Assembly: GCA_028284935.1 (NCBI GenBank)
Contig: JANQQQ010000036.1
Location: forward strand, 62,001-126,000
Length of the DNA stretch: 64,000 bases
Origin: Croceivirga sp.
Lineage (GTDB): Bacteria > Bacteroidota > Bacteroidia > Flavobacteriales > Flavobacteriaceae
Direction: 5' to 3'
How positions within the stretch are numbered: the first letter of the stretch is position 1; each line of letters begins with the position of its first letter. The notes under the pieces are model-generated. The model was not told where the DNA came from, searched no databases, and was given only the letters and a program-made list of their open reading frames with translations. Below, piece after piece: positions 4,156 through 39,045 of this stretch. The position numbers were made by a program, and so were the translations under genes.

Positions 4156-4172
4156 TACAAATTATTGTGCCA
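4156..4172 (-). promoter_or_regulatory. sigma-54 type -24/-12 promoter for permeases 2 and 1
   Basis: On the minus strand TGGCAC is followed by AATAAT and TTGTA. This is the least canonical of the five: the -12 G lies one base too far from the -24 GG. It is supported by its position: 34 bases separate the -12 G from the ATG, 12 bases lie between it and an 11-bp palindrome TTGATAATCAA at 4185-4195, and a tandem 17-bp palindrome pair lies 53 bases upstream, as in the other four modules. Confidence 0.6.
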
Positions 4173-4224
4173 AAACACAACAAATTGATAATCAAATATT
4201 TGAAATCATACCTGTTCCCTATAG

Positions 4225-4263
4225 TGTAAAATATTTTGACAAAGCCTGTACAAAATATTTACA
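4225..4263. promoter_or_regulatory. tandem 17-bp palindromes, putative activator site (module A)
   Basis: Plus-strand TGTAAAATATTTTGACA (4225-4241) and TGTACAAAATATTTACA (4247-4263) are separated by 5 bp, so the centres are 22 bp apart, two helical turns. Both are imperfect palindromes with TGT...ACA ends. The same arrangement precedes four other sigma-54-like promoters in this locus. Binding by the NtrC-type regulator encoded at 39,160 is inferred. Confidence 0.8.
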
Positions 4264-4281
4264 AATACTTTATAATGCCTT

Positions 4282-6711
4282 TTACTCAGTCCGCAAACTC
4301 TTTACGGGATTGGCCATTGCTGCTTTTATACTTTGCCAACTTATTGAAACCAATGCTATAACAATGGCCAGCATGGCTGCCGATAACAAGGCCCACCAAG
4401 GAATGTTAATTCGGAAAGCAAAATCTTCCAGCCAACGGTCCATGGTAAACCAACCTAAGGGCAGGGCAACCATAATTGAAATGCCTACCAGTTTTAAAAA
4501 GTCGACTGAAAGCCGGTAGGTAATCTGTCCCACACTTGCTCCCAACACTTTTCGCACTCCAATTTCCTTAACCCTTTTTTGCGCATTAAAAGTGGCGAGA
4601 CCAAAGAGACCTAAACAGGCGATAAGGATGGAGAGTAAGGTAAAGGCCATAAAAATTTGGCCCAAACGTTGCTCCGCCTGATAACTATCGTTAAAGGAAT
4701 CATCCAAAAAGTAATAGGAAAAGGGCTGCCCGGGAGCCATTTCTTCCCAAAGGGTCTTGACCTGCAAAAGTGCTTGCTCTAAATTGCCTGATTTAAGTTT
4801 AATATTCAACTTACTGGCATTGCTACCTGGCATGATGCTGAGCGCATTAATTTCATTGCGAAGAGACTCATAATTGAAATTTTTGATGACCCCTATTACG
4901 GTATAAACACGTTCTACACCAATATTGTAAACTAACTGTTTTCCCAAAACCTCCTCAGGAGTACTTCCCAAAATAGAGACAGCAGTTTCATTCAACAATA
5001 TTGCCGTAGAGTCGGTCGCGAATTGTGAATCGAAATTTCGTCCCGCTATAATCTCAAGACCCATAGTGGGCACATAATCATAATCGGCCAGCCATTCTTG
5101 CATACTAATGGCTTTTTCTTGGTCCCGGTTTTCGGCCCTTAAAAATGTAGTATTGCTTCGTGATGAAGGCGTGGGCAAGAAACTACTTAGGGTCGCATTT
5201 TTTACTTGAGCCAAATCTTTTATCGATTCTTTAAAAGACTGCTGCCTTTTGTGATCCATACTGTACACATCGTCAACAACAAGCACCTGTTCTTTGCCAA
5301 AACCAACATCCTTGTTTTTTATGTAGTTCAATTGCTGATATACCACTAGTGTTGCGATAATCAAAAAAACGGAAATAGCGAATTGAAAGATGACCAAAAA
5401 ATTTCTCGTCTTACCACCGCCCAAGCTATGGTCACCACTGCCCTTTAATACTTTTATTGGGACAAAGCGAGACATGAAAAAAGCCGGATAACTTCCTGAT
5501 AGCAAACCTAATATAAAGGTGGCTGTCACTAGAATCGTCCAAAAAATAGGACTAGTGTAGGGTATTTGTAGTGCTTTGTTTGATAGCCCATTGAAAAACG
5601 GAAGGGATAAGAAGGCAATGAGCAATCCTAGAATCAATGACCCGAAAGCAATAAGGCCGGATTCGGTCAAGAATTGACGGATAAGCCCAATTTTGGCTGA
5701 TCCTAGGGTTTTTCGAATACCTACCTCTTTTGCCCTTCTTAATGACTGTGCTGTGGATAAGTTCATAAAATTAATACTGGCAAGTACAATCAGGAACAGA
5801 CCGATAGCCCCTAAAATATAGAGGTTTTGAACGCTACCATTCTGGCTAAATTCTGGATACCTATGGGAATGTAAATGAATGTCGGTAAGCGGTATAGTGC
5901 TGAATTTGATGTAGTTACCCGAGTCTTCGAACTGTGTTCTTGTGGTTCCAGGAAAATATCGCTGGAGATATGGTATCACATAGGTGTCAATCATCTTATC
6001 CATACCTTGTTCAAGGTCTGCAACTTGTGTTCCGGGTTTCATTTTGACCAAAGTGTAGTAGTTGTGACCTACCCAGGCCCCTCGTTGGGCATGCAAATAC
6101 CCTGGCATTGCCAAAAAGATGTTGCGGTCACTCAAAAAGGAGTTTTTAGGTAGATCCTTAATTACCCCGCTTACCGTATACACCTGATCATTTTCCAAAA
6201 TCATGGTCTGACCTACGGCTTCACTGGTTGGGAAGAACTTTTCAGCCATACTTTGTGAAATGACCATGGTATTTGGTAGGTCCAAGGCGGTGTTTACGTC
6301 CCCATAGATTAACTCCAATCCCAACATTGAAAACATGCTGGTCTCTGCATAGGTCACTTTGGGCTCCTTTATGTTGTTCGGGTCATCGGCTTTTTTTATA
6401 AGTACGCCGCCAATATTACGAAATCGTGTGGTCAATTCCACTTGGGGTAAATCGGTCATCATGGCTTGCCCCATCGGCGCGGAAACTTCGGGAGTGTTTG
6501 TTATTTCTCCTCCAAATTTAACGTTGGCATTTATACGATGTATTCGGTCCGCATCAACAAACATGTTGTCGTAGTTCAACTCATCATAAATGAACAGGCC
6601 AATGAGCAGGGCCCCAGCCATCCCAACGGCAAGGCCAAAGGTGTTTAGAAAAGTAAAGAAAGGTTGCTTTTTTAGGCTTCGCCAAGCGATTTTTAATTGG
6701 TTTTTAAGCAT
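4282..6711 (-). CDS. FtsX/MacB-type ABC permease 3 (KKQPFF subfamily)
   Basis: An 809-residue permease starting MLKNQLKIAWRSLKKQPFF. Membrane segments lie near residues 21-42, 297-318, 350-372, 388-412, 437-458, 690-710, 738-758 and 775-797. Coupling motifs are KEVGIRKTLGS and KEIGVRKVLGA; the C-terminus is NPVKSLRTE. Its second periplasmic domain carries SFLPTPSSRS, shared only with the permeases at 6,761 and 16,540, with which it forms a clear subfamily that also shares LNTFGLAxGMAGALLI in the first membrane segment. It is the last gene of the six-permease unit driven from the module near 19,100. It follows its upstream neighbour by 49 bases that contain a 20-bp repeat-like element. Subfamily duplication looks recent; the common cargo, if any, is unknown. 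Confidence 0.94.
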   Translation of the reverse strand: MLKNQLKIAWRSLKKQPFFTFLNTFGLAVGMAGALLIGLFIYDELNYDNMFVDADRIHRINANVKFGGEITNTPEVSAPMGQAMMTDLPQVELTTRFRNIGGVLIKKADDPNNIKEPKVTYAETSMFSMLGLELIYGDVNTALDLPNTMVISQSMAEKFFPTSEAVGQTMILENDQVYTVSGVIKDLPKNSFLSDRNIFLAMPGYLHAQRGAWVGHNYYTLVKMKPGTQVADLEQGMDKMIDTYVIPYLQRYFPGTTRTQFEDSGNYIKFSTIPLTDIHLHSHRYPEFSQNGSVQNLYILGAIGLFLIVLASINFMNLSTAQSLRRAKEVGIRKTLGSAKIGLIRQFLTESGLIAFGSLILGLLIAFLSLPFFNGLSNKALQIPYTSPIFWTILVTATFILGLLSGSYPAFFMSRFVPIKVLKGSGDHSLGGGKTRNFLVIFQFAISVFLIIATLVVYQQLNYIKNKDVGFGKEQVLVVDDVYSMDHKRQQSFKESIKDLAQVKNATLSSFLPTPSSRSNTTFLRAENRDQEKAISMQEWLADYDYVPTMGLEIIAGRNFDSQFATDSTAILLNETAVSILGSTPEEVLGKQLVYNIGVERVYTVIGVIKNFNYESLRNEINALSIMPGSNASKLNIKLKSGNLEQALLQVKTLWEEMAPGQPFSYYFLDDSFNDSYQAEQRLGQIFMAFTLLSILIACLGLFGLATFNAQKRVKEIGVRKVLGASVGQITYRLSVDFLKLVGISIMVALPLGWFTMDRWLEDFAFRINIPWWALLSAAMLAIVIALVSISWQSIKAAMANPVKSLRTE

Positions 6712-6728
6712 AATTATTCGTTTTTTGA

Positions 6729-6748
6729 CCCTTCGACTTCGCTCAGGG
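6729..6748. repeat. dispersed repeat-like element between permeases 3 and 4
   Basis: The 20-bp sequence CCCTTCGACTTCGCTCAGGG lies in the 49-base gap between two permease genes. From general knowledge, closely similar CCCTGAGCGAAGTCGAAGGG-like sequences are scattered through intergenic DNA of many bacterial genomes. Its arms are partly self-complementary (CCCT...AGGG). Only one copy was seen here, so the call as a dispersed repeat rests on recognition of the motif. Confidence 0.5.
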
Positions 6749-6760
6749 CAGGTTGATGAT

Positions 6761-9193
6761 TTATTCGGTACGAAGACTCTTTACCGGATTGACCACAGCG
6801 GCCTTAATACTTTGATAGCTTACCGTTAGCACTGCTATGAAGATGGCAATAAAAGCGGCCAAAAGCAATACCCACCATTGCACTTCAATGCGATAGGAAA
6901 AATCTTCCAACCATTTGCCCATAACATACCAACCAATTGGCAAAGAAATAAGGATGGCCAGAACTACCATTTTAAGGAAATCGGTTGTCAGCCGATAGGA
7001 AATCTGACCAACCGTTGCCCCCAAAACCTTACGTACGCCAATTTCCTTGGTGCGTTTTTGGGCATTGAACGTAGCCAAACCAAACAACCCTAAGCATGCT
7101 ATTAAAATGGAAAGTACCGAAAACACCAAAAATATGCGGCCCAGTCGCTGTTCCGCGTCATAAACGGTATTGAAAGAATCATCCATAAAACGATAGTTAA
7201 AAGGTTGACCTGGGGCAAGCTTTTTCCAGACCCCTTCAATGCCTGCTATGGTCTTTGAAAAATCCCCCGGTTTTAACTTTACAGCCATGTTTCCGGTAGA
7301 TTGGCCCATTACAAGGCACAAAGCCCCAATATCATCACGGAGTGATTCGTAATGAAAGTTCCGTACCACTCCTATAATGGTGTAATATTCCGGCTCTTGA
7401 GAATCGATATCTTGGGAAATGGGCAGGCCCAATGCTTCTTTGGTTTCTACCCCCAAAACGGGTAACGCTGCTTCGTTTATGATTACGGCACTGGAATCAG
7501 TACCAAACCGATTGTCAAAATTGCGTCCCGCAACCAACTCCATATTCAAGGTTGGGATATAATCCTCGTCAACGTTCCAAATCTGCATCTGAATGGCATT
7601 TTCCTGCTCCCTCGAACCTTCCCTGAAGAATGAGGTGTTTGACCGTGAGGAGGGGGTTGGTAAAAAACTGCTAAGTGTAGCGCTTTCAACTTGACTTCGT
7701 TTTATGACCTCTTCCTTGAATGTATTCACCTGATTTCCGGCAGCAAATGCATCGTCAATGAGCACTACTTGTTCTTTTTTGAAACCAAGATTTTTGCCTT
7801 GAATAAAATTTAGCTGTTGAAAGACAACCAGAGTAGCAATGATTAAGAGTACCGAAATAGCAAATTGAAAAACCACCAGGGCATTTCTTATGCCTGCGCC
7901 ACCAACACTTTTTTGTCCACTACCCTTTAACGTTTTGGCCGGCATAAAACGTGACATGAAAAAGGCGGGATAGCTTCCCGAGAATAGCCCCAATACAAGT
8001 GCGGCGACAAACAAGATAGACCAAAAAGAGATATTGTCATAAGGAATGGAAATTGCTTTGGCTGCTAGATTATTGAACAGGGGAAGCATCACAAAAGCTA
8101 AAACCAAAGCTAAAAGCAATGAAATAAAGGAAATCAGCCCTGATTCAATCAAAAACTGACGTACAAGGTCCAGTTTCTTTGAACCCAATGTCTTTCTAAT
8201 ACCTACCTCTTTTGCCCTTTTCAAAGAATGGGCCGTTGAAAGGTTCATAAAATTCACACTGGCCAAAACGATAAGGAAAAGTGCAATGAAGGAAAGGATG
8301 TACACATTTTGAATGCTACTGTTGGCACTCATTTCTGATTGTCGGTTGGAGTGAAGATGGATATCGGTCAGGGGCATAGTATGGTATCTGTAATAATTGC
8401 CGGACGCTGCAAACGATTCCATGGTTAGGCCGGGAAAAACTTGTTGTGCCCATGGGAGCAAATACTTTTCAAGTATGGATGCCAAAGGTTCCTGAAAATC
8501 CTGGATATTAGCTGTGGGTATGAGCTTAATGAAGGTGTAATAGTTTGTGTTACCCCAAAGATTCTCTCGGGAGTCCGCCAGTCCAGCCATAGCCATAAAT
8601 ACGCTGTGTTCCCTTAGGAAAGAATTTTTAGGCAAATCATGAATGACTCCAGCTACTGTATAGTTGTGCGTATTGTTCAAAATAAGGTTTTGGCCCAGTG
8701 CATTTTCAACTTTAAAGTGTTTTTCCGCAGCTGTTTTGGTCAATACCAAAGTATTGGGTTGGGTAAGTGCGGTTTTGACATCGCCAACCAATAATTTGAT
8801 ACCGAAGAAATCAAAGAATGTAGAGTCCGCGAATGTGGTTTGGAGTTCTTTAATATTGGTTTTGGCATCAGTTTTTCTAAGGAGCATGCTCCCCTGGTCG
8901 CGAAATCGAACTGTGGATTGCACTTGTGGAAAATCACGCTTTAAGGTTCCTGCCATTGGGGCCGAAGTTTGCGAAGCGTCAATTTCGGCACCACCAAATT
9001 TGATGTCAGCATCAATCCGATAAATACGTTCGGCATCGGCAAACATTTTATCAAAACCCAATTCATCATGGATATATAAGGAAATCAATAGGGCTCCGGC
9101 CATACCAATGGCAAGGCCAAAGGTGTTGAGAAAGGCAAAAAAGGGTTGCTTTTTTAGACTTCTCCAAGCAATTTTCAAATAGTTTTTGAACAT
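6761..9193 (-). CDS. FtsX/MacB-type ABC permease 4 (KKQPFF subfamily)
   Basis: An 810-residue permease starting MFKNYLKIAWRSLKKQPFF, with the eight-segment double-FtsX layout (segments near 21-42, 297-318, 350-372, 388-412, 437-458, 690-710, 738-758, 775-797). Coupling motifs KEVGIRKTLGS and KEIGVRKVLGA; C-terminus NPVKSLRTE after AAVV. Very close to the permeases at 4,282 and 16,540: all three share SFLPTPS in the second periplasmic domain, a DxxDxD-like RIYRIDADIKFGG start of the first domain, and GQISYRL/GQITYRL after the second coupling motif. Fifth gene of the six-permease unit; 42 bases separate it from the upstream gene. No own promoter was seen. Confidence 0.94.
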   Translation of the reverse strand: MFKNYLKIAWRSLKKQPFFAFLNTFGLAIGMAGALLISLYIHDELGFDKMFADAERIYRIDADIKFGGAEIDASQTSAPMAGTLKRDFPQVQSTVRFRDQGSMLLRKTDAKTNIKELQTTFADSTFFDFFGIKLLVGDVKTALTQPNTLVLTKTAAEKHFKVENALGQNLILNNTHNYTVAGVIHDLPKNSFLREHSVFMAMAGLADSRENLWGNTNYYTFIKLIPTANIQDFQEPLASILEKYLLPWAQQVFPGLTMESFAASGNYYRYHTMPLTDIHLHSNRQSEMSANSSIQNVYILSFIALFLIVLASVNFMNLSTAHSLKRAKEVGIRKTLGSKKLDLVRQFLIESGLISFISLLLALVLAFVMLPLFNNLAAKAISIPYDNISFWSILFVAALVLGLFSGSYPAFFMSRFMPAKTLKGSGQKSVGGAGIRNALVVFQFAISVLLIIATLVVFQQLNFIQGKNLGFKKEQVVLIDDAFAAGNQVNTFKEEVIKRSQVESATLSSFLPTPSSRSNTSFFREGSREQENAIQMQIWNVDEDYIPTLNMELVAGRNFDNRFGTDSSAVIINEAALPVLGVETKEALGLPISQDIDSQEPEYYTIIGVVRNFHYESLRDDIGALCLVMGQSTGNMAVKLKPGDFSKTIAGIEGVWKKLAPGQPFNYRFMDDSFNTVYDAEQRLGRIFLVFSVLSILIACLGLFGLATFNAQKRTKEIGVRKVLGATVGQISYRLTTDFLKMVVLAILISLPIGWYVMGKWLEDFSYRIEVQWWVLLLAAFIAIFIAVLTVSYQSIKAAVVNPVKSLRTE

Positions 9194-9235
9194 GATTTCT
9201 TGTTTTATACTTTGACTTCCACTAATACGGGTAGG

Positions 9236-11623
9236 TTACTCCGTACGTAAACTTTTTATTGGATTGGTCATTGCCGCCTTTATACTTTGAATACCAATGG
9301 TTGCAGCGGCAAGGGCAATTGAACAGAAACCAATCATTACCAATGTTGGCCATTGAATACCGCTATTGTAAGCAAATCCCTGAAGCCACTGGGACATTAC
9401 ATAGTAGGCTATTGGAAATGCTATTGCAATTGAAATTAAAACAAACCTTATATAGTCCTTGGTCAATAGGGTAACAATTGAAAATATAGAGGAGCCCAAA
9501 ACCTTTCGAATCCCAATCTCTTTTGTCCGTTGGGTGACCCGAAATGAAACCAGTCCCACGAGACCTATGGCTGCAATGAAAAGGGCCAAAAAAGTAAATA
9601 CATTCAAAACGGTTCCAAGGCGGTTTTCACTGTCATACAATTGGGCATATGAATTTTCCATGATTTCGACTTCGAAAGGCACATATGGCGCAATATCATG
9701 CAATGTGGCTTTTATGAAGTTTCTAGTCTCTGCAAAATCTTCCATGTTTATTTTCATAATTATTTGACCAAAAGTTCTGTCCCAATCTCCAGCGCCCAAC
9801 GACATGTATAACGGTTCAATACTAAGATCTAAAGTTTGGAGGTGGAAGTCCTTAACGACCCCTATTACTTTTCCGCCGTTGAACCCTTTTCCAATGGGGT
9901 TTTCCCACCCTAACTTTCTTACCACAGCCTCATTGATTAAATAAGCTTCCGAGGAGTCGGTTGGAAAGCTTTTTGAAAAACTTCGCCCCTGAATGAGCTC
10001 AATTTCAAATAAGTCCGTGAAGTCATAGTCAACATTGCTGCGATAAAGAAAAAGTTGGGAATTATCCTCATTGCCTTCCCACTTATCAATTGGTCCCTGG
10101 TTAAATAGGTTCATAGGTAATTGTCGGCTAATGGACACCTTTTGGATTTTTGAGTGTTTTAATAATTCATTCTTGATTACTTCGGTTTTCTCACCAATCT
10201 TTTTCTCCCAATAGCCAACGTGTACTACACCATCCTTGTTGTAACCTAGATTTTTGTTCTTGATATAGTCCAGCTGTTGATGAATGACAACACTGCCAAA
10301 AGCGAGTACAATAGCTGATGCAAACTGCCCAATTACAAATACCCCCCTTAGTTTACCCCCTTTTTGACCATTTTGTGAAATGGCTCCTTTGAGCGCTTTG
10401 ACCGTATTAAGCTTTGACAGGAACAATGCAGGATATAGGCCAGAAAGAACCCCGATGCAGAACGCCAATAGTACCATGCTGGGAAGCACCCACCACACCC
10501 CTAAAATATCCAGGGGGATTTCCTTGCTTAATACTAAATTGTAGTAAGGCAGTATTGCAATGGTCATGACTAAACCCAGTAAAAAGCTGATAAGGGTTAT
10601 TAAAAATGATTCTCCTAGAAACTGTAGCATAAGATGAACCTTTTTTGCACCGAGTACTTTGGTAATGCCCACTTCCTTACCCCTCTGCATGGACTTGGCA
10701 GTGGCCAGGTTGATATAGTTGATTGCTGCAATTAAAAGGATCACAAAAGCAATCAAAGTATAGAAATATACATACCTAATATCCCCATTTGAAGACAGTT
10801 CAATATTTATGTTTGACTTGAGGTGGATATCCCTTAAAGACTGTAGTTCATACTCAGGATGAAAGTATAGGCCAACTGAAGCATATTCCGGTTTACTAAG
10901 TTTTTCATATGTTTTTATTTTGGCCGTCAGTTCATCCGTATCAGCTCCATCTTCCAACAGGACATAGGTATAGTAATTATTGCTTACCCATCTATCGAAA
11001 TCATTTGCATAACCTCTTTGGTTCTTAATGGAGGCGATAAAGGAATATGTAAAATGTGAATTTTTTGGCGGATCTTCTATTACGCCCTTTACTATGACTT
11101 TACGATCGCCATTATAGTTCAATTGCTGGTCCAAAGGCGACGTATCTCCAAATAGTTTTTTGGCCAATGAACGCGTAAGTAATATGGTATTCGGGTCTTG
11201 AAGTGCTTCCTTTGGTTGTCCACTTATGATGTTGATCGTAAAAACATCAAAAAATGCGGGATCTGTAAAAATACCCTTTTCCGAAAAGGCCGTCCCACTA
11301 TTTCGCAGAAGTACGCTCCAGCTATCGAGATTGGTGAACGTCTTTACTTCTGGAAAATCCCTTTTCATTGATATCCCAATAGGCCGGGAAGAAACAGCAT
11401 AATAGTCGGTTCCACGATATTCGTTCCCAGATTGCTTTTGGATCAATCTATAGACGTTTTTGGCTTTTTCATTATGGGTGTCATAGCTTAATTCATATTG
11501 CACAAAAAGCGCGATCAAAATAAAGCAAGTAATACCAACGGAGAGACCACAGATATTTATAAGCGAATACAGCTTATGGTTGATAAGACTTCTCCAAGCT
11601 ATTTTTAGATAATTATTAAACAC
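9236..11623 (-). CDS. FtsX/MacB-type ABC permease 5, GTG start
   Basis: A 795-residue permease beginning at a GTG (plus-strand CAC at 11621-11623), giving MFNNYLKIAWRSL; all other permeases here use ATG. Eight membrane segments. The first coupling motif is KEVGITKVLGA within SMQRGKEVG (Arg to Thr in the usual GIRK), the second KEIGIRKVLGS; the C-terminus is NPIKSLRTE. The periplasmic domains are tyrosine-rich and show no close resemblance to the KKQPFF subfamily that flanks it on one side. It lies 48 bases downstream of permease 6 and 42 bases upstream of permease 4 in the six-permease unit. The weaker start codon may lower its expression relative to neighbours; this is inference. Confidence 0.93.
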   Translation of the reverse strand: MFNNYLKIAWRSLINHKLYSLINICGLSVGITCFILIALFVQYELSYDTHNEKAKNVYRLIQKQSGNEYRGTDYYAVSSRPIGISMKRDFPEVKTFTNLDSWSVLLRNSGTAFSEKGIFTDPAFFDVFTINIISGQPKEALQDPNTILLTRSLAKKLFGDTSPLDQQLNYNGDRKVIVKGVIEDPPKNSHFTYSFIASIKNQRGYANDFDRWVSNNYYTYVLLEDGADTDELTAKIKTYEKLSKPEYASVGLYFHPEYELQSLRDIHLKSNINIELSSNGDIRYVYFYTLIAFVILLIAAINYINLATAKSMQRGKEVGITKVLGAKKVHLMLQFLGESFLITLISFLLGLVMTIAILPYYNLVLSKEIPLDILGVWWVLPSMVLLAFCIGVLSGLYPALFLSKLNTVKALKGAISQNGQKGGKLRGVFVIGQFASAIVLAFGSVVIHQQLDYIKNKNLGYNKDGVVHVGYWEKKIGEKTEVIKNELLKHSKIQKVSISRQLPMNLFNQGPIDKWEGNEDNSQLFLYRSNVDYDFTDLFEIELIQGRSFSKSFPTDSSEAYLINEAVVRKLGWENPIGKGFNGGKVIGVVKDFHLQTLDLSIEPLYMSLGAGDWDRTFGQIIMKINMEDFAETRNFIKATLHDIAPYVPFEVEIMENSYAQLYDSENRLGTVLNVFTFLALFIAAIGLVGLVSFRVTQRTKEIGIRKVLGSSIFSIVTLLTKDYIRFVLISIAIAFPIAYYVMSQWLQGFAYNSGIQWPTLVMIGFCSIALAAATIGIQSIKAAMTNPIKSLRTE

Positions 11624-11671
11624 TATTTTCGTCTTTGATTGTTGATTCGATTAATGTGCAACATAGTTTAT

Positions 11672-14035: not shown

Positions 14036-14104
14036 AATGCTTCGTTTTTTAACCTTTTGCTTCGTCCATGCCTTCCATAAACTGGCCTGGGCTTGTTTGA
14101 TATT

Positions 14105-16516: not shown

Positions 16517-16539
16517 GATTTCTTCCCTTTTTTGATGTT

Positions 16540-19012: not shown

Positions 19013-19028
19013 AACGATTATCATGCCA
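19013..19028 (-). promoter_or_regulatory. sigma-54 type -24/-12 promoter for permeases 8 to 3
   Basis: Minus-strand TGGCATGATAATCGTT keeps GG at -24 and G at -12 at the canonical distance (consensus TGGCACG-N4-TTGCW; here T for C at two places). The -12 G lies 36 bases before the ATG. An 11-bp imperfect palindrome CTGATATTCAA at 19042-19052 lies 13 bases upstream of the -24 box, as in the other modules. Confidence 0.78.
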
Positions 19029-19081
19029 AATTCATAAATAGCTGATATTCAAATTTTTAAATCTACTGTGACAGCATCCCT

Positions 19082-19120
19082 TGTAAAATATTTTGACAGT
19101 GTTTGTCTAATATGTTTACA
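19082..19120. promoter_or_regulatory. tandem 17-bp palindromes, putative activator site (module B)
   Basis: TGTAAAATATTTTGACA (19082-19098) and TGTCTAATATGTTTACA (19104-19120), 5 bp apart. The proximal copy is base-for-base identical to that of module A at 4225-4241. Distance from the proximal edge to the -24 box is 54 bases. Confidence 0.82.
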
Positions 19121-21590: not shown

Positions 21591-21607
21591 GATGATTCGT
21601 TTTTTGA

Positions 21608-24062: not shown

Positions 24063-24078
24063 AACGATAACCATGCCA
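24063..24078 (-). promoter_or_regulatory. sigma-54 type -24/-12 promoter for permeases 10 and 9
   Basis: Minus-strand TGGCATGGTTATCGTT, the same pattern as at 19013-19028. The -12 G is 36 bases before the ATG, and an exact 11-bp palindrome CTGATAATCAG (24091-24101) lies 12 bases upstream of the -24 box. Confidence 0.78.
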
Positions 24079-24129
24079 CAATTTAAATCACTGATAATCA
24101 GAAAAATAAATTTTTTCTTTCCTGTTCTC

Positions 24130-24168
24130 CGTAAAATATTTTGACAGTGCTTGTATAAGATATTTACA
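24130..24168. promoter_or_regulatory. tandem 17-bp palindromes, putative activator site (module C)
   Basis: CGTAAAATATTTTGACA (24130-24146) and TGTATAAGATATTTACA (24152-24168), 5 bp apart, proximal edge 52 bases from the -24 box. One end base (C for T) departs from the TGT...ACA frame. Confidence 0.8.
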
Positions 24169-26604: not shown

Positions 26605-26620
26605 ATCGATTTCCATGCCA
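26605..26620 (-). promoter_or_regulatory. sigma-54 type -24/-12 promoter for permease 11
   Basis: Minus-strand TGGCATGGAAATCGAT with canonical spacing; -12 G is 37 bases before the ATG. A degenerate copy of the 11-bp element (TTGACAATTAA, 26634-26644) lies 13 bases upstream of the -24 box. Confidence 0.75.
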
Positions 26621-26673
26621 AATACGTAAACAATTGACAATTAAGTATATAAAATGTGTTGACACTTCTGGTG

Positions 26674-26712
26674 TGTAAAAAATTTTGACAGCCTGTGCTT
26701 AATTTGTTTACA
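26674..26712. promoter_or_regulatory. tandem 17-bp palindromes, putative activator site (module D)
   Basis: TGTAAAAAATTTTGACA (26674-26690) and TGCTTAATTTGTTTACA (26696-26712), 5 bp apart, proximal edge 54 bases from the -24 box. The distal copy is the most degenerate of the set. Confidence 0.78.
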
Positions 26713-29123: not shown

Positions 29124-29249
29124 AATTATTCTTTTTTGGCCCATCCAGCCTCCCCCAATGAGAGGGAAACCTGTTTGGTAATTAATGATTTCACATCTTT
29201 TCCTTCCTTTCCGAGGAAATACACAATCAAAGCGGGCAGAGGGCGGCTT

Positions 29250-31649: not shown

Positions 31650-31728
31650 GACTGATGGTTTTTGATTGATTCGTTTTTTTGGCTATTGAACCTGCTCCAA
31701 TTAAAGACTTAAAAAATCTTAAATAGTT

Positions 31729-34131
31729 TCACTCTGTACGCAAACTTTTCACCGGATCGGCCGTGGCCGACTTTATGGATTGAAAGCTCACGGTAAAAAA
31801 GGCTATGGCAAGGGCCAATACACCCGAAAGCGCAAACACCCACCATTCAACGTCAATTTTATAGGCGTATTTGTCAAGCCATTGTTCCATCACGTACCAA
31901 GAAAAAGGGATGGCTATGAGAATGGCAATGCCCACAAGTTTTATAAAGTCCTTGGATAAGAGCGTTACGATGGTAGCTAAGTCCGCTCCCAAGACCTTTC
32001 GAATACCAATTTCCTTGGTGCGTAGCATGGCGCTGTAGGTGGCAAGTCCAAAAAGGCCCAAACAGGCAATAAAAATGGCCAAGCAAGAGAATAGGGTAAA
32101 AAGTCTTCTAAATCGAACGTCAGCCAAATATTGCTCATTGAATGATTCATCCAAAAAACTGTATAAGAAAGGTCGATGTGGTGCCAATTCGCTCCATTTT
32201 TTTTCAACGGAAGCCAATGCCTCTTGGTAATTGTTCGATTGCATGCGCAATGAAAAATACCTCCCGTAAGGAACCTGCCTGAGGGTCAACGGAGCCACTT
32301 TTTGATGCAATGACATGTAGTTAAAGTCTTTTACCACACCGATTATGGTTCCTTCCCTGCCCCATTGCTGGAATTTTTTTCCTAAAATTTCTTGGGGATT
32401 GCTATAGCCAAATGATTTTGCGGCGGCTTCATTAACAACCAATGAACTGGTACTGTCAGCGGGGAAATCAGGAGAAAAGGCCCTGCCGGCAACCACTTCT
32501 ATTTTATAGTGTTGGATAAAGTTGTTGTCTACCTCATAGATATAGGGAGAAAAATTTTCCATATTGCCCTTAGGGGTTTCTATATCTGTGCCTGCTGCGG
32601 GGAAATGGCTACTGGGCACAGTCCGGGAAAGGGAAACCGAACGGACGTCAGCAAGGGACAAAAGCTCGCTTTTAAAAGCCTCTGCATTGCTCAGCACGGT
32701 ACCGTCCCAGTTAAAATCCAAAATCAACTGTTGTTCCTTATCAAAGCCCGTGTCCTTATTGAGCATAAATCCAAGTTGGTGGTACACTACCACGGTACTG
32801 GCAATCATGGCAATGGACAAACTAAACTGAAATACCACTAGCCCCTTTCTTAGATTGGTTCCTTGTGCCGAAGTTCTAAAGGCCCCTTTTAAAACACTTA
32901 CAGGTTTAAATCCAGATAAAATAAATGCAGGATAACTGCCAGAAAAAAGACCCGTTAAAAAGGTTATACCAAAGTAGAGCAGGAGTACGGGCAAGGTAAA
33001 AATGGAACCAAATTCAAAGGTTCTGTTGGTAAGGTTTCCGAGCCATGGCAACGAAATGAAGGCAAGTAGAAGTCCAAGAATGGAGGCGACCAGGACCAAG
33101 ATCAATGATTCTCCCAAAAACTGATGGATAAGACCTCTTCTTTCCGCACCGATGACTTTCCGTACCCCTACTTCCTTGGCCCGTTCCATAGATCGGGCGG
33201 TAGCTAGGTTCATAAAATTTATACTGGCTATCACCAAGATAAACAACCCTATGATTGAAAAGATATAGATGTTGGACAAGCTACCCGTCTCTCCAGGTTG
33301 GCGGTCCGAGGTGGAGTGCAGATAGATGTCATTAAGGGATTCCAAAGAAAAGTTGTAGTAGTATTCTTTTCTTTCTTCGGGGTCGATATGCTTGTCTAAG
33401 AACCCTGGGATTTTTGTTTCGAATGCCTTTTGGTCAAAATTATCGGCAACTACGATGTAGGTATAAAAATCTACATAGCCCCACCAGTCAAAAATTTCTG
33501 GCCTTGTTTGGTAAAAACTGCTCATGGACATGAGCACATCAAAAGTAAAATGGGAATTCTGTGGAATATCCTTAATCACACCTGTTACGGTATACTCGCC
33601 ATCTGCGGCCCTTCCCCCAATGCCATTAAGGGTTTTGCCGATGGGATTTTCATTTCCAAAGTATTTCTTCGCCGTGGTCTCCGTAAGTACTATGGAGTAC
33701 GGTGCTTCCAGAGCGGTCTGTGGATTGCCTGATACCAATGGCCAGCTGAAAACGTTAAAAACAGAAGCATCTACATAAAAGCATTCACTTTCTTGAAAGG
33801 ACCGATTGTTGTATTCCAATAGAATATCACTGATACCGGAGAATTGTACTTTTTCCACGATTTCGGGAAAATCGGATTTGAGTGCTGGTCCAACTGGCGC
33901 ATTCCCCCATATCCATGTTTCCGTTGGATCTTGTTCACTTCTGTGATGCACTAAGCGATAAATGTTATCCTTTTTTTTATGATAGCTATCAAAAGAAAGC
34001 TCATCCGATATAAAAACGGCAATCAATAAAAAACAGGCTAGGCCAATTGCTAGGCCTCCAATATTGATAAGGGAGTACCCTTTGTTTTTTAAAAGGTTTC
34101 TCCAAGCGATTTTTAAATAATTTTTGAACAT
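31729..34131 (-). CDS. FtsX/MacB-type ABC permease 14, promoter-proximal member
   Basis: An 800-residue permease starting MFKNYLKIAWRNLLKNKGYS, with membrane segments near 20-42, 285-307, 335-360, 375-400, 425-447, 680-702, 730-750 and 765-788. Because both FtsX halves are in one chain, one molecule should equal a MacB dimer or a LolC-LolE pair and recruit two ATPase subunits (established for the family; inferred here). Coupling motifs SMERAKEVGVRKVIGA and KEIGIRKVLGA; the C-terminus is DPVKSLRTE (Asp for Asn). It follows the GIN-domain gene by 25 bases in the unit that also encodes the only ATPase, and is the best candidate for the ancestral permease of the array. Confidence 0.94.
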   Translation of the reverse strand: MFKNYLKIAWRNLLKNKGYSLINIGGLAIGLACFLLIAVFISDELSFDSYHKKKDNIYRLVHHRSEQDPTETWIWGNAPVGPALKSDFPEIVEKVQFSGISDILLEYNNRSFQESECFYVDASVFNVFSWPLVSGNPQTALEAPYSIVLTETTAKKYFGNENPIGKTLNGIGGRAADGEYTVTGVIKDIPQNSHFTFDVLMSMSSFYQTRPEIFDWWGYVDFYTYIVVADNFDQKAFETKIPGFLDKHIDPEERKEYYYNFSLESLNDIYLHSTSDRQPGETGSLSNIYIFSIIGLFILVIASINFMNLATARSMERAKEVGVRKVIGAERRGLIHQFLGESLILVLVASILGLLLAFISLPWLGNLTNRTFEFGSIFTLPVLLLYFGITFLTGLFSGSYPAFILSGFKPVSVLKGAFRTSAQGTNLRKGLVVFQFSLSIAMIASTVVVYHQLGFMLNKDTGFDKEQQLILDFNWDGTVLSNAEAFKSELLSLADVRSVSLSRTVPSSHFPAAGTDIETPKGNMENFSPYIYEVDNNFIQHYKIEVVAGRAFSPDFPADSTSSLVVNEAAAKSFGYSNPQEILGKKFQQWGREGTIIGVVKDFNYMSLHQKVAPLTLRQVPYGRYFSLRMQSNNYQEALASVEKKWSELAPHRPFLYSFLDESFNEQYLADVRFRRLFTLFSCLAIFIACLGLFGLATYSAMLRTKEIGIRKVLGADLATIVTLLSKDFIKLVGIAILIAIPFSWYVMEQWLDKYAYKIDVEWWVFALSGVLALAIAFFTVSFQSIKSATADPVKSLRTE

Positions 34132-34156: not shown

Positions 34157-34906
34157 CTAAAGGGGCCTGATGGATGCTTTCCCTATGATAATCCCCCTAT
34201 TGATATTAGGATTGCCATCGTAACGAACTAAGGCCTCACCGAAGGCGGTAAGTTTAATTTTATCAGTAACGTTTAGCTTAAACGCGCTTTCGCCATAGGC
34301 GGTAATCCGCGTAACATCGTTTTCAACCCCTAAGGTATTGACCCTACTTTCGCCATAGGAGGTATATTTTTGGTTTTCAATGGAACCTGATTTAATGTCC
34401 AATTCACTTGCTCCATAGATGGAAGTACGTAGTTTGTTTAATTTGGCCTCTTGCAATACTACTTTTGACTCCCCGTACAGCACCAAACGGAATTTTTGTT
34501 GCTCCAAGGGGCTCTCCATAGTGATGGTCTGCTCCCCGCGAACAGAAAGCCGCTTTAACGTCCTATAGTTTACGGTAACGACAGCTTCCGTTCTATGATA
34601 GATAGGACGTTTGCTTTTACCATACTCCGTTTTGTACTTTTTGCGTTTGGTAAGGAATTTGGCATCTTCAAGATAGATTCTCAAGGTTTTGCCTTTGACC
34701 TCTACCTTGACTTTTTCCAGAGGTACGTCAGTTTCATCAATCGTAACCTCTTCCTTGTCACTTTCTATAAATGATACTTCAACGTGCGGACTTATGATTA
34801 CTTTATCAAAAGATTTCACATCGATGGTTTTTAGCTGGGCTTGTATCCCCGATGTAAGGGTAATACCAGCTAAAAAAGCCAATAAAAAGGGTGTTCGTTT
34901 TTTCAT
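34157..34906 (-). CDS. GIN-domain (DUF2807-type) secreted protein
   Basis: A 249-residue protein with a signal peptide (MKKRTPFLLAFLAGITL, cleavage near AQA/AQ at about 23) and the head-GIN fold typical of Bacteroidota. From residue 125 on it consists of short strands repeating a Y-G-E-S-like turn (LYGES, IYGAS, SYGES, AYGES, AFGEA) every 18-20 residues, consistent with a beta-helix or stacked sheet. It lies between the ATPase gene (32 bases upstream) and the first permease (25 bases downstream), inside the sigma-54-controlled unit, so it probably works in the periplasm with the transporters or with envelope stress. GIN proteins have no agreed biochemical role; none is assigned here. Confidence 0.85.
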   Translation of the reverse strand: MKKRTPFLLAFLAGITLTSGIQAQLKTIDVKSFDKVIISPHVEVSFIESDKEEVTIDETDVPLEKVKVEVKGKTLRIYLEDAKFLTKRKKYKTEYGKSKRPIYHRTEAVVTVNYRTLKRLSVRGEQTITMESPLEQQKFRLVLYGESKVVLQEAKLNKLRTSIYGASELDIKSGSIENQKYTSYGESRVNTLGVENDVTRITAYGESAFKLNVTDKIKLTAFGEALVRYDGNPNINRGIIIGKASIRPL

Positions 34907-34938: not shown

Positions 34939-35634
34939 TTATGCCATAGCGCCTATGGCCCTGTTTTGACTTTCCGTTACAATTTGACCATCGAATAGAT
35001 TGATCACTCGATGTGCGTAATGGGAGTCCCTATCAGAGTGGGTAACCATAACGATGGTAGTACCCTCTTGATTCAATTCTGTAAGCAAGTTCATTACCTC
35101 AATGCCATTTTTGGAGTCGAGGTTTCCTGTAGGCTCATCTGCCAAGATGAGTTTTGGATTGGTTACAACGGCCCTGGAGATAGCTACTCTTTGTTGCTGA
35201 CCTCCAGAAAGTTGTTGGGGGAAGTGCTTTTCCCTATGTGCGATTTTCATTCGCTCCAAAACAGTCTTTACTTTTTCCCTGCGTTCCGCTTTTCCCATTT
35301 TTAGATAGATCAGTGGCAACTCCACATTTTCATAAACGGTCAATTCGTCGATAAGGTTAAAGCTTTGGAAAACAAAACCTAAGTTTCCTTTTCGTAGTTG
35401 GGTTCTTTGACTCTCCCGCAAACCAGCTACTTCATGACCGGCAAAATTGTAGCTTCCCTCAGTAGGATTATCCAACATTCCGATAATGTTCAGTAAGGTG
35501 GACTTGCCGCAGCCAGAAGGCCCCATGACTGCAACAAATTCACCTTCTTCAACATTTAGGTTGACCCCATTAAGGGCTAAGGTTTCTACTTCTTCTGTTC
35601 TAAAACTCTTTTTTAAATTTTGAATCGTAATCAT
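34939..35634 (-). CDS. MacB/LolD-type ABC ATPase, the only ATPase of the array
   Basis: A 231-residue cytoplasmic ATPase with Walker A GPSGCGKST (38-46), Q-loop FVFQ (Q90), signature LSGGQ (142-146), Walker B with ADEPTGNLD (165-173) and H-loop His199. The ADEPTGNLD form is characteristic of the MacB/LolD/FtsE branch. It powers FtsX-type permeases; here it is encoded between the repeat protein (30 bases upstream) and the GIN protein. No second ATPase accompanies any of the 14 permeases in the window, so all of them probably share this one. Start at ATG 35632-35634 gives MITIQNLKKSF, the expected start for the family. Confidence 0.95.
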   Translation of the reverse strand: MITIQNLKKSFRTEEVETLALNGVNLNVEEGEFVAVMGPSGCGKSTLLNIIGMLDNPTEGSYNFAGHEVAGLRESQRTQLRKGNLGFVFQSFNLIDELTVYENVELPLIYLKMGKAERREKVKTVLERMKIAHREKHFPQQLSGGQQQRVAISRAVVTNPKLILADEPTGNLDSKNGIEVMNLLTELNQEGTTIVMVTHSDRDSHYAHRVINLFDGQIVTESQNRAIGAMA

Positions 35635-35664: not shown

Positions 35665-36285
35665 TTAAAAAGGTTCTTCTGCTTTACAAACCACTTCTGG
35701 CAGTATTGGAAAATCAGCATCTAAATCGTTGTCCATTTCGATATATTCAATGGAGTTCAAATCAAAATAAGGCTCATAAGGAGAAAATCCTTGTGGAAGA
35801 TATTTCTCCGGATTAAAATCGAGGATACTATCTTCCTGCTCAATAAAATGTATTGATGTCAGATTCGTTGATTCCTTATGAGCATCAAAACCTACCGGAA
35901 GGTACTTTGATGGATCAAAGCCAAGGCTATGGTCCTCCTGATCAATAAATTCAACACTGGCCAAGTCAAAGTAAAAGGTATGTGGGTCAAAATTCTCCGG
36001 TAAATAATCATATGGGTCAAACCCCAATTCAATGACCTCCTCCTCTATGTATTCAATTTTACTAATGTCCAAATCGAAAGTTTCCTCCTCCTCATTATTT
36101 GTAGGGTTTGAAAAAAATTCCGGTTTGTCCATCGAATGGTCGACAGCTGCAATAAGGCTTTCAAACGTATCCCTATGCTGTAAGGTTTCTTGTATGGGTG
36201 TTACCTCCCAAGTACTTTGTTGTACTGCTGCTATGGCGGAGCTTGATAAGAGCACACATCCATAAATTTTCATTAATCTGTTCAT
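35665..36285 (-). CDS. acidic secreted repeat protein of unknown function
   Basis: A 206-residue protein with an N-terminal signal-like segment (MNRLMKIYGCVLLSSSAIAA) and a strongly acidic body. From residue 70 it contains three full and one partial copies of a 34-36 residue unit starting near 70, 106, 140 and 174. Each unit has a F-D-L-x-S-I-E-[YF]-I strand, an acidic E-x-E-D turn, L-G-F-[DN]-P-x-x-Y-L-P and G-F-[DS]-P. I do not recognise an established family. Its place between adaptor and ATPase genes, in a tight operon (20 bases after the adaptor stop), implies a periplasmic or surface partner of the efflux machinery. A single Cys near the C-terminus (VVCKAEEPF) is notable. Confidence 0.75.
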   Translation of the reverse strand: MNRLMKIYGCVLLSSSAIAAVQQSTWEVTPIQETLQHRDTFESLIAAVDHSMDKPEFFSNPTNNEEEETFDLDISKIEYIEEEVIELGFDPYDYLPENFDPHTFYFDLASVEFIDQEDHSLGFDPSKYLPVGFDAHKESTNLTSIHFIEQEDSILDFNPEKYLPQGFSPYEPYFDLNSIEYIEMDNDLDADFPILPEVVCKAEEPF

Positions 36286-36305: not shown

Positions 36306-37556
36306 TTATTTTAATACAATTCGTTCTGCTTCTCCAAAGCTGTCATAATTACTGGTAATTACTTGTTCTCCAGGTTGAAGTCCCTCAAGAACCTCAAAAT
36401 ATCGTGTATTTTGTTTCCCTACTCTAATATTGCGTTTAATGGCCTCGTTTCCGTTGGGATCTACAACAAAAACCCATTGACCTCCGGTACTTTGAAAGAA
36501 TCCCCCCTTAGGTAACAATAAAGCATCATTGGACGCCCCCAACTGCAGTCTTATGTTATAACTTTGACCTGCACGAATGGTTTCCGGTTTGTCACCAGTA
36601 AATACTAGATCTACATTGAACCGGCCATTTCTTACCTCCGGATATACTTTTCGTAAACGCAGTTCGTATTCTTTACCATTTCGTTCCAAGGTAGCGGATA
36701 AGTCGCGTTTTACACGGTCGATGTAGTGCTCGTCAATGGCCGCTTCAATTTTAAAATCGGTAAGCACATTGATCTGTCCAATACGTTGACCTTGCGAGAT
36801 GTTCTGTCCGATTTCAGCATCCAAAAAACCCAATTGCCCATCTGCGGGGGCCCTAACATTTAAGTGGTCCAGTCTTTCATAAACCATTGAGAGTGTTTTT
36901 TTCATGCGTTGCAAATCAGTATCCAATCCAGCCAAAGAGGTTTTTCTTAGTTCATCATCCTGTTCGGTCTGTAACTTTACAATCTCAAATTGTTTCTGGG
37001 CCAATTGGTAGTTTTCCTTTGAAGTAAGGTATACTTCTTTGGAAATGAGTTCATCGGCATAAAGCGCCTCATTTTGCTCGTAGTTCCTTTTTAGCCGCTG
37101 CAAATCGGTACTTGTTGTTGCCAAGGAACGGCGGCCTTCGACCTGACGCGCATCGAAAGTCAGACGAGTGGAACGTAGGTCATTCTGCTTGAGCGCCAAG
37201 TTGCTCTCACTTGCCAAAATCTGTTCATAGAGATTCATGTTCTCCAGCGTTAGTATGATGTCTCCTTTTTTGACCATGGCTCCCTCTTCGATTAATTTTT
37301 CAGAAACCCGTCCCCCTTCATAGGCATCCATATAGATAGTGGCAATGGGTGCCACGTTTCCATTAATGGTGATGTAGTCGTCAAACTTTCCACTGGCCAC
37401 CTCAGAAATGGAGAGGCGCTCTTTTTCAGTTCTAAATGTGGATTTGGAGCTGCCAAAGGCCAACTTCCATCCTACGAATAGCAGTAGTGCCCCCAATGCA
37501 ATATATCCGTAGTGCTTTGGGCGAAGTCCTTTTTTCTTTTCCAGTTGTATATCCAT
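36306..37556 (-). CDS. HlyD/MacA-type periplasmic adaptor protein
   Basis: A 416-residue membrane-fusion protein: N-terminal cytoplasmic tail, one membrane anchor at about 17-35, a split lipoyl/barrel-sandwich domain (GGRVSEKLIEEGAMVKKGD near 80-100 and VRAPADGQLG near 240), a long alpha-hairpin (about 110-235) and a beta-barrel plus membrane-proximal domain (LLPKGGFF, GLQPGEQVI). It links the inner-membrane permeases to the TolC-like channel. Its gene sits 2 bases from the stop of the upstream tolC-like gene, implying translational coupling. MacA-like proteins usually begin with a similar single transmembrane helix; length is normal. Confidence 0.93.
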   Translation of the reverse strand: MDIQLEKKKGLRPKHYGYIALGALLLFVGWKLAFGSSKSTFRTEKERLSISEVASGKFDDYITINGNVAPIATIYMDAYEGGRVSEKLIEEGAMVKKGDIILTLENMNLYEQILASESNLALKQNDLRSTRLTFDARQVEGRRSLATTSTDLQRLKRNYEQNEALYADELISKEVYLTSKENYQLAQKQFEIVKLQTEQDDELRKTSLAGLDTDLQRMKKTLSMVYERLDHLNVRAPADGQLGFLDAEIGQNISQGQRIGQINVLTDFKIEAAIDEHYIDRVKRDLSATLERNGKEYELRLRKVYPEVRNGRFNVDLVFTGDKPETIRAGQSYNIRLQLGASNDALLLPKGGFFQSTGGQWVFVVDPNGNEAIKRNIRVGKQNTRYFEVLEGLQPGEQVITSNYDSFGEAERIVLK

Positions 37557-37558
37557 CT

Positions 37559-38902
37559 CTAATTGATATTAAATATTGGTAGGCCTCGATAAAAATCAAG
37601 GGTACTATTATTAACTCGTAATCGTAATTGTGCTTGTAAATTTTGGTTTTGTGCCGTAGCAAAAAGGGTCTTGGCCTGTCCGAGCTCAATGGCGTTGATC
37701 ATCCCTTTTTCATAACGTTTCTGTGCAATGGAAAAAGCCAAACGTTGGGATTGCATTCCCCTTTCCGTCTGGGCCGTCTCCGAGACAAGCGCGTCATGTT
37801 CCTGCACCAATTGCTGTATGATTTGAAATAGCTCCTGCTCGGTAACCTTTGCCGTATTTTTGGCACGCTCCAAGGCTATCTTCTGCTGTTTGACCTGTGA
37901 ACGTGAGGCCCATCCGTTAAAGATGGGCACATTGAGCCTTGCCCCAATAAATCTAAAAGTGTTGTCCCGGAACTGGTCTCTGAACGGAACCGTATTCCCT
38001 AAGGTGTCCACGATGGTTTCAAAATATCCCGTACCAATACCACCATTTAAAGTTATGGAGGGGTAAAGATTGCCCCGGGTAGCGGCCAGTTGCTTTTTTG
38101 CAGCCTTAACTCGATACGTCTGGGCCTTTATGGAAGGCATAAAACCTTTGGCCGTTATAAAAATGGAATCGGACACTACGGTTTCCATTCCCTCGCTAGG
38201 ACCTGCAGAAATGAACTCGGGCTGCACGGAAATATCACTTTCCCCTTCAACATTCATGGCCTGAAGTAAGATGAGTTTTGCCGCTTTTAACCGGTTTTCA
38301 TTTTGGGTGAGCAACAGTTTATCTGCATAGAGCAAGGATTCAGCCTCGTAAAGGTCTGCCCCCGCCATAACACCGAGTTCCACCTGTTTTTTGACCAAAT
38401 CGTAATTGGTCTGTGAAATTTCAACCTGTTCCTCTGCAATGACAATCAACCCTTCAATAAATTGAATGTCGTAATAGGCGGTCATTACCCGAAAAGCCAA
38501 TAGATACTTTTGCTGTAGGCTTTCTTGCTGAGTGGCCTTGTACAAAAATTTTGACGCTTTGATGTTATTTATCTTTTGGAACCCTTGGAAGACATCAAAT
38601 GAGGATTGCAAGGAATAGTTGTTCGAAAAGAATTCCGTGTTGACAAAACTGTTGTCCTCTGGGTTGATGGATCGTCCAAAGTTAATGGAGTAATCTGCAA
38701 ATCCATTGATTACCGGAAGTAAATTTCGAATGGATTGCCTATAGGTTTCCTTGTTGGATTGCGTATTAAACTCAAATTCATTCAATTGCAGATTATGCTC
38801 AATGGCATACGTAATGCATTCGTCCAAAGTCCAAACTTTCTGTGATATGCCTTTCGAAAAAAGAAGGAAGGCGATACTAAAAAAAAGCAGTTTACTGTTC
38901 AT
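37559..38902 (-). CDS. TolC-family outer-membrane channel
   Basis: A 447-residue outer-membrane efflux protein with a signal peptide (MNSKLLFFSIAFLLFSKGIS) followed by the TolC start motif WTLDECITYAIEHN. It shows the two-fold repeat of long helices with AGADLYEAESLL near 185 and the second repeat near 390-440 (GMINAIELGQAKTLF). It provides the exit duct for the tripartite pump formed with the adaptor and the permease-ATPase complexes. First gene of the main transcription unit, starting 16 bases or so after the predicted sigma-54 transcription start; its regulatory region is shared with the divergent activator gene at 39,160. Confidence 0.93.
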   Translation of the reverse strand: MNSKLLFFSIAFLLFSKGISQKVWTLDECITYAIEHNLQLNEFEFNTQSNKETYRQSIRNLLPVINGFADYSINFGRSINPEDNSFVNTEFFSNNYSLQSSFDVFQGFQKINNIKASKFLYKATQQESLQQKYLLAFRVMTAYYDIQFIEGLIVIAEEQVEISQTNYDLVKKQVELGVMAGADLYEAESLLYADKLLLTQNENRLKAAKLILLQAMNVEGESDISVQPEFISAGPSEGMETVVSDSIFITAKGFMPSIKAQTYRVKAAKKQLAATRGNLYPSITLNGGIGTGYFETIVDTLGNTVPFRDQFRDNTFRFIGARLNVPIFNGWASRSQVKQQKIALERAKNTAKVTEQELFQIIQQLVQEHDALVSETAQTERGMQSQRLAFSIAQKRYEKGMINAIELGQAKTLFATAQNQNLQAQLRLRVNNSTLDFYRGLPIFNIN

Positions 38903-38927
38903 TTTTTGATTGCTATGCCAAAGTAGT

Positions 38928-38943
38928 TGCTATTCCTATGCCA
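38928..38943 (-). promoter_or_regulatory. sigma-54 type -24/-12 promoter for the tolC-hlyD-ATPase unit
   Basis: Minus-strand TGGCATAGGAATAGCA has GG at -24 and GC at -12 with canonical spacing, the best -12 box of the five. The -12 G is 27 bases before the tolC-like ATG. The 11-bp element TTGAAAATCAA (38957-38967, within a longer TATTTGA-AAA-TCAAATA palindrome) lies 13 bases upstream of -24. Confidence 0.8.
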
Positions 38944-38988
38944 TTATTTTAAGTATTTGAAAATCAAATAATTGAAAGTATTGCAGGT

Positions 38989-39045
38989 TGTACAGTATTT
39001 TTACATTGTAAAATATTTATACAAGATGTGTCAAAAAAATTGACA
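38989..39045. promoter_or_regulatory. three 17-bp palindromes between tolC-like and activator genes (module E)
   Basis: TGTACAGTATTTTTACA (38989-39005), TGTAAAATATTTATACA (39007-39023) and TGTCAAAAAAATTGACA (39029-39045). The last two form the standard pair with a 5-bp gap; the first is an extra copy 1 bp from the second. The pair is 64 bases from the -24 box, one helical turn further than in the other modules, and the extra site is at 46. The distal site lies about 115 bases before the activator start, so autoregulation is possible. Confidence 0.82.

Follow-up and report, generated by a model that had tools for sequence, protein, structure and literature searches.

A 64-kb window of a Croceivirga genome (bases 62001-126000 of contig C2; genome of 4.23 Mb, handled here as G000) carries a long row of duplicated MacB/FtsX-type ATP-binding cassette (ABC) permease genes, followed by the genes of one TolC-type pump core and by a divergent gene for an NtrC-type activator. 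Our reading, to which we give a probability of roughly 0.8, is that this locus belongs to a dedicated and conserved sigma-54 regulon that would co-express the one pump core with many duplicated permeases. Sequence comparison establishes the repeated regulatory modules and how they are spaced, as well as their association with the regulator gene and their position before permeases. Judged by the regulator, the window has its nearest named relatives among the Flavobacteriaceae, for instance Croceivirga and Flagellimonas/Allomuricauda; the records closest to the window may be absent from that comparison.

In each of the window's five modules two 17-bp dyads stand 5 bp apart and are followed by a site resembling that of integration host factor (IHF), then by a -24/-12 promoter and finally by a unit of the array. 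An earlier reading of this DNA, made from the letters only (hereafter the sequence-only reading), had proposed five dyad pairs, all of which were found at their claimed coordinates:

4225-4263, minus strand: P1 paired 17-bp dyads, unit starting with permease 1
19082-19120, minus strand: P2 paired 17-bp dyads, unit of permeases 7 to 2
24130-24168, minus strand: P3 paired 17-bp dyads, unit of permeases 9 and 8
26674-26712, minus strand: P4 paired 17-bp dyads, permease 10 unit, with a weaker third dyad at 26648-26664
39007-39045, minus strand: P5 paired 17-bp dyads, between the TolC-led core unit and the regulator, with a third dyad at 38989-39005

P5 precedes the TolC-led core plus permeases 13-11. 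The common order proposed for the five regions was borne out as well. With up to three mismatches the paired pattern matches the window at these five places alone, it has 0 matches across 100 dinucleotide-preserving shuffles of the window, and the other 13 gaps between array or core genes (up to 105 nt) hold no pair. Genome-wide, at the same tolerance, there are 7 sites against 1 control site, five of them in the array and two elsewhere, C9:3362 ahead of a lone permease gene of 831 aa and C13:91291 ahead of one of 792 aa. Under a stricter composite, one exact dyad with TGGCA at 50-66 bases, the genome yields 4 sites and the control 0. All 4 belong to the array; P3 and both lone sites fall short through a single dyad base each. 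The sequence-only reading had asked whether the 17-mers might be equally common elsewhere, and here the answer divides. The paired form is specific, while single 17-mers are only mildly enriched (33 against 18.5 expected in the window; 118 against 81 for the reversed control in the genome) and were rejected as a marker on that ground. Because single dyads are weakly enriched and pairs are rare, specificity resides in the pairing and in the promoter spacing. A chance origin of the modules was rejected through the shuffles, the genome control and the composite search, together with the order-level co-occurrence and the TGGYA spacing described below.

Extra third dyads also accompany modules in L101 and L102; of 254 module sides, 25 have such a dyad within 30 bases, compared with 7 at a distance of 80-110 bases. 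One locus, L067, has two modules (4043-4081 and 4869-4907) in a single divergent TolC-regulator region.

The pairs are tied to the neighbouring regulator by their distribution. Among 80 relatives of the regulator (L001-L080, 56-89% identical), 75 have a pair within 400 bases of the regulator gene. In 296 Flavobacteriales genomes, pairs with at most one mismatch occur in 7 of the 8 genomes whose regulator is at least 63% identical (one of the 7 being the window's own) and in 0 of the 288 others, with a Fisher p of 2e-13 that treats genomes as independent and ignores their relatedness. The pairs might instead be the sites of a different protein, for instance a repressor or another sigma-54 activator, the regulator being a mere neighbour. 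The genome does offer candidates for this, namely four other strong matches to the sigma-54 activator domain; yet the 4.5-5.5-kb stretches around these four hold no pair closer than 7 mismatches, pairs with at most one mismatch are confined to genomes with a close regulator, and they adjoin its gene in nearly all relatives. Furthermore, a genome of the window's own genus without a close regulator (G307) has neither pairs nor a long-permease array, its 7 matches at E up to 1e-10 including 2 long permeases by open frame. We consider this alternative very improbable, and the comparisons support a dedicated sigma-54 regulon that the adjacent NtrC-type regulator would govern.

The pattern extends well beyond this genome. 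Pairs with up to two mismatches are present in 35 of 36 relative genomes (those behind 37 of the 80 loci, L006 left out), at 85 sites against 5 for the reversed control, as summed rows. Distal stretches were chosen by pattern alone, regardless of gene content; half of the 10 sites of G026, all 5 of G024, and G002 C1:71414 and C33:104905 were left out, the last two resembling two included G001 sites. The collection amounts to 127 distinct modules, a figure to which L101 and L102 each contribute one overlapping register and closely related strains contribute near-identical sequences. They stand at the regulator/TolC/HlyD core in 79 cases, before a MacB/FtsX permease in 43 (41 if overlapping registers are counted once) and before an ABC ATPase in one (L090), leaving four unmatched. 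Two of these four have TGGCA in register, one preceding a GIN-domain gene and the other a gene like GldB/DUF2268; the remaining two, L128 and L131, lack TGGYA in range and probably arose by chance. The regulon of tandem ABC permeases that the sequence-only reading had envisaged gains comparative support but proves wider than the tandem array, since it also takes in lone permease genes, the core of the pump and, among relatives, a single GIN-domain gene and a single ATPase gene. Its reach is the Flavobacteriaceae, and a pair also adjoins the regulator in Membranihabitans and in the Bacteroidales records L077 and L080.

The anatomy of the promoters is equally regular. Downstream of the five pairs the following elements were located:

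4178-4190, minus strand: P1 IHF-like site WATCARNNNNTTR, 9 of 9 specified bases
4157-4172, minus strand: P1 -24/-12 promoter TGGCACAATAATTTGT, its -12 G one base late
19035-19047, minus strand: P2 IHF-like site, 9 of 9
19013-19028, minus strand: P2 -24/-12 promoter TGGCATGATAATCGTT
24084-24096, minus strand: P3 IHF-like site, 9 of 9
24063-24078, minus strand: P3 -24/-12 promoter TGGCATGGTTATCGTT
26627-26639, minus strand: P4 IHF-like site, 8 of 9
26605-26620, minus strand: P4 -24/-12 promoter TGGCATGGAAATCGAT
38950-38962, minus strand: P5 IHF-like site, 8 of 9
38928-38943, minus strand: P5 -24/-12 promoter TGGCATAGGAATAGCA, long register (63 bases from the pair)

The distances from pair to -24, given earlier as 52-54 and 64, were measured as 52, 53, 51, 53 and 63 to the T of TGGCA, which agrees within counting convention. 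The -24/-12 promoter has its weak point in the 4225 module, where the -12 G lies one base further from the -24 than in the other four. Across the collection, 118 of the 127 modules have TGGYA 50-66 bases from the pair on one side or both (10 of them on both), with 11.6 expected. Two groups of distances stand out, 51-54 with 15 occurrences and 62-65 with 105, which differ by about one helical turn. In the 76 core rows, which include two registers of L048, TGGYA falls at 60-66 in 74, and there the -12 T.G is nearly invariant, at 1.9 bits per base.

An 11-bp element, which the sequence-only reading had listed in its own right, is indeed present in all five regions; it equals the left part of WATCARNNNNTTR and is best read as belonging to a putative IHF-like site. 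WATCARNNNNTTR is the Escherichia coli IHF consensus. In 74 core promoters the match in one register averages 7.72 of 9, against 5.68 in the next-best register and 5.12 in mononucleotide shuffles. For 44 distal sides, which include at least one true core promoter (L031) and one side that is the wrong one of its module (L102), it averages 6.16 at the exact register and 7.39 within one base, shuffles giving 5.01. The site is spaced from the -24 and not from the pair, starting 18-19 bases above TGGCA in both window spacings.

Such repetition could also have arisen without selection, as the leftovers of a tandem duplication of promoter plus permease; the permeases are paralogous, and the promoter-proximal dyad is the same, or almost the same, in P1-P3. 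Nevertheless, the permeases that head units or belong to the core (1, 7, 9, 10 and 13) are just 24-38% identical to each other, yet dyads, IHF-like site and -24 are kept across P1-P5 while the bases between them differ. Moreover, the layout recurs before distant lone permeases in other genera, and its spacing shifts by about one helical turn. We reject this account as extremely improbable.

Two further features of the core promoters were observed. In 52 of 67 core promoters (at 38911-38922 in the window) a second box like TTTGGCACAG lies 22-24 bases below the first -24, close to where transcription would be expected to start; a second full sigma-54 promoter at this place was rejected, no conserved -12 following the box. 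Facing the regulator gene, 55 of 67 core loci have TAnnTTT[AG] exactly 28 bases from the module, a position at which the window lacks it. The motif resembles the -7 box of Bacteroidota, and as such would allow the regulator gene to be controlled by its own bound product.

The genes served by these promoters form a row on the minus strand, with the regulator and a kinase on the plus strand:

1739-4195, minus strand: permease 1 (MacB_PCD twice, FtsX twice), listed TTG start
4282-18978, minus strand: permeases 2 to 7, six genes, gaps of 23-69 nt, module-free between
19137-24028, minus strand: permeases 8 and 9, 17-nt gap
24185-26569, minus strand: permease 10
26733-34131, minus strand: permeases 11 to 13, assigned to the core unit, gaps of 105 and 79 nt module-free
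34157-34906, minus strand: GIN-domain (DUF2807) protein, by domain search
34939-35634, minus strand: ABC ATPase with Walker A and LSGGQ; DarD is its best NCBIfam model, below cut-off
35665-36285, minus strand: 206-aa protein without a Pfam or NCBIfam match; apparent signal peptide, about three repeats
36306-37556, minus strand: HlyD/RND-type periplasmic adaptor
37559-38902, minus strand: TolC-family outer membrane protein
39160-40533, plus strand: NtrC-type response regulator with receiver, sigma-54 AAA+ (GSFTDA loop) and Fis-type HTH_8
40523-41869, plus strand: histidine kinase with two predicted transmembrane helices, a very short loop, PAS below cut-off and HATPase

The 13 complete permeases measure about 800 aa each and, in the three tested, have two MacB_PCD and two FtsX stretches per chain and no ATPase. 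Since the listed TTG start of permease 1 sits upstream of the -24 of P1, its true start is probably below 4157. The row extends to the left of the window through 11 further permeases and a second ATPase (G000 C2:36248-63717), the first of these 11 reaching into window bases 1-1717, for a total of 24 co-oriented permeases over about 65 kb; the second ATPase, 52% identical to the first, closes the far end. This leftward extension and the modules elsewhere in the genome went unmentioned in the sequence-only reading.

Several side observations concern the gene row. The repeats of the 206-aa protein measure roughly 40 residues each, and paralogues 38-40% identical to it lie at G000 C30 28024-28332 and 28665-29486. 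A leader like CAAAAAACGAATNATNATG recurs before several permease genes, for instance at 6711-6761 and 21590-21608, and also inside units, where no promoter precedes. GIN-domain (DUF2807) genes recur with the system, 17 of 80 loci matching that of the window and one such gene (L085:5175-6038) having its own module. A known structured RNA in the window was rejected, no Rfam match being found at gathering scores.

The regulator, correctly described before as an NtrC-type activator divergent from the TolC-led unit, although the adjacent histidine kinase had been passed over, exceeds the cut-offs for Sigma54_activat (PF00158, 229 bits), the receiver (PF00072, 72) and the Fis-type HTH (PF02954, 54); its NCBIfam matches, among the 25 of 93 listed, are all below cut-off. 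Its receiver is closest by far to the solved response-regulator receiver domain 2qr3, and on reading the sequence the receiver aspartate and Walker A motifs are present. The recognition helix is RQTLYNK in 78 of 80 orthologues and RQTLYNR in one, with one copy cut short. The genome has one rpoN gene (a single Sigma54_DBD match, 177 bits). As for the kinase, a plain hydropathy scan predicts two transmembrane helices with loops of at most 13 residues in 71 of 78 relatives and one helix in 7, by which it resembles the intramembrane-sensing kinases of Bce systems.

A number of observations weigh against the proposed regulon. The sigma-54 contact loop is G[AS]FTDA-like and not GAFTGA in all 80 relatives as well as in the window, F and T being kept and the second G replaced by D, whereas the genome's four other activators have GAFTGA, GTFTGA, GAFTSA and GAFTGA. 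The -12 is poor at P1 and at its counterparts in L091, L096 and L120, nine of the 127 modules lack TGGYA in range, and four precede other genes, two of them probably by chance. Of the genome's four lone long permeases, two (on C30 and C37) have no module that we could find; the one on C37 follows a gene that reads, by eye, like a PadR-type regulator. Five of the 80 loci have no pair within 400 bases, one of which, L031, shows a pair under the later pattern. G327, with a 77% identical regulator, has no pair at one mismatch, and G012, reached through L030, has none at two. Finally, the 63% line that separates 7 of 8 from 0 of 288 genomes was drawn after seeing the data, because 47 of the 288 order-mates have regulators 46-57% identical and yet no pair.

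Taken with these reservations, the arrangement would work as follows. The kinase (40523-41869) may phosphorylate the NtrC-type regulator (39160-40533), which would bind the paired 17-bp dyads; a protein of IHF/HU type would bend the DNA at WATCARNNNNTTR, just upstream of the -24, and the looped activator would open RNA polymerase carrying RpoN at the -24/-12 promoters. Jointly switched on would be the TolC-HlyD-ATPase core with permeases 13-11, three further permease units of the window, the P1 unit and two lone permeases, the P1 unit probably continuing through the 11 further permeases to the second ATPase. In this form the mechanism looks like that of a classical enhancer-dependent regulon, and it is the target set and reach that are new as far as searched.

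How the permeases might be energised is a separate matter. On one account the co-expressed permeases would serve the single pump core, as an exchangeable-permease exporter in which a constant TolC channel, HlyD adaptor and ATPase are co-expressed with dozens of duplicated permeases from the array and from lone genes. The ATPase-facing parts would be kept alike while the periplasmic parts diverge, and the intramembrane kinase may sense the state of the envelope, perhaps through the permeases as in Bce systems, and so call the whole repertoire. In 26 permeases (24 from the array, with arr20 truncated at the end of its stretch and arr18 taken as the longest open frame of its stretch, and 2 lone), the coupling regions have 49% and 54% mean pairwise identity, and the two periplasmic parts 24% and 25%; well conserved too are the N-terminal stretch (51%) and the last transmembrane regions (45-49%). 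This contrast would fit one ATPase partner with varied substrates, as weak evidence, because the coupling signature is general in the MacB/FtsX family. We hold the exchangeable-permease exporter as a tentative proposal, somewhat short of even odds.

It is also conceivable that the modules regulate as proposed and the permeases nonetheless use other ATPases, or act as ATPase-free sensors, co-expression reflecting a common stress only. The second ATPase that closes the array is in keeping with this, as are the module that precedes another ATPase gene in one relative (L090) and the ADOP-type duplicated permeases, whose model name calls them orphans. The much better conservation of coupling regions than of periplasmic parts speaks on the other side, with the reservation just given. 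To this possibility we assign a chance close to one half.

NtrC-family two-component activators such as NtrC, ZraR and AtoC follow the general mechanism of sigma-54 regulons, and the present system shares with theirs the receiver, AAA+ and Fis-type HTH domains, the paired upstream dyads, the IHF-like site and the -24/-12 promoters; it differs in its targets, duplicated MacB/FtsX permeases in an array and as lone genes, and in its G[AS]FTDA loop. MacAB-TolC is a tripartite exporter whose ATPase is fused to the MacB permease. Here too a MacB_PCD plus FtsX permease, an ATPase, an HlyD-type adaptor and a TolC-type channel are encoded together in the core unit, and MacB appears among the solved-structure matches; unlike in MacAB-TolC, the permease is a duplicated single chain with no fused ATPase, 24 of them stand in one array, and the ATPase is a separate protein of 231 aa, far below the cut-off of the MacB equivalog. 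ADOP (NCBIfam TIGR03434) has the same two MacB/FtsX halves per chain and matches over its full length; the two permeases tested, out of 13 in the window, score 270 and 306 bits where the cut-off is 622. Beside these ADOP-like permeases an ATPase, an adaptor and a channel would belong to the same regulon. The darobactin exporter models also stay below their cut-offs (DarB 124 and 166 of 700 bits, DarD 302 of 375, DarC 193 of 450).

Bce-type modules use an OmpR-type response regulator, whereas that of the window is of NtrC type. As far as the accessible text of PMC3023708 describes these modules of Firmicutes, an intramembrane-sensing kinase lies by an ABC transporter whose permease has a large extracytoplasmic part, much as here, and signalling by the kinase needs the transporter; the present system differs from them in phylum, in its NtrC-type sigma-54 regulator, in TolC and HlyD and in its many permeases. 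An analogy for one ATPase serving several transporters is provided by the shared sugar-importer ATPases of MsmK type (PMC4519317, from the part available), which work in sugar uptake, whereas export here would be of MacB type and the sharing of the ATPase is putative. Iron-responsive transporter genes are treated in PMC10434189, the available portion of which establishes no link to the present system.

The sequence-only reading had known of no published description of such a system. None was found for the regulator, the paired sites or the array in the open-licence literature of PubMed Central, but sigma-54 control of such permeases had been predicted: in its accessible part, PMC12316311 (2025) assigns predicted sigma-54 promoters to COG0577/FtsX permeases of three classes, Bacteroidia among them, and presents the link as the first evidence of its kind. 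Both studies connect sigma-54 promoters with FtsX-type ABC permeases in Bacteroidia. That work is a promoter-matrix survey that treats Flavobacteriia as a separate class, and in the same accessible part this regulator, the enhancer pair, the array and the lone-permease regulon do not appear. It calls GAFTGA invariant, and might for that reason miss the G[AS]FTDA family of regulators.

For duplicated MacB/FtsX permeases without an ATPase of their own, a site pattern that locates them genome-wide, together with one ATPase, one adaptor and one channel, provides concrete candidates for the partner that energises them and for their regulator. Moreover, these promoters constitute a natural set for the study of enhancer phasing, with two spacings about one helical turn apart and an IHF-like site that stays in register with the promoter. 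The shared core, if true, would represent an exporter that swaps its substrate-facing part.

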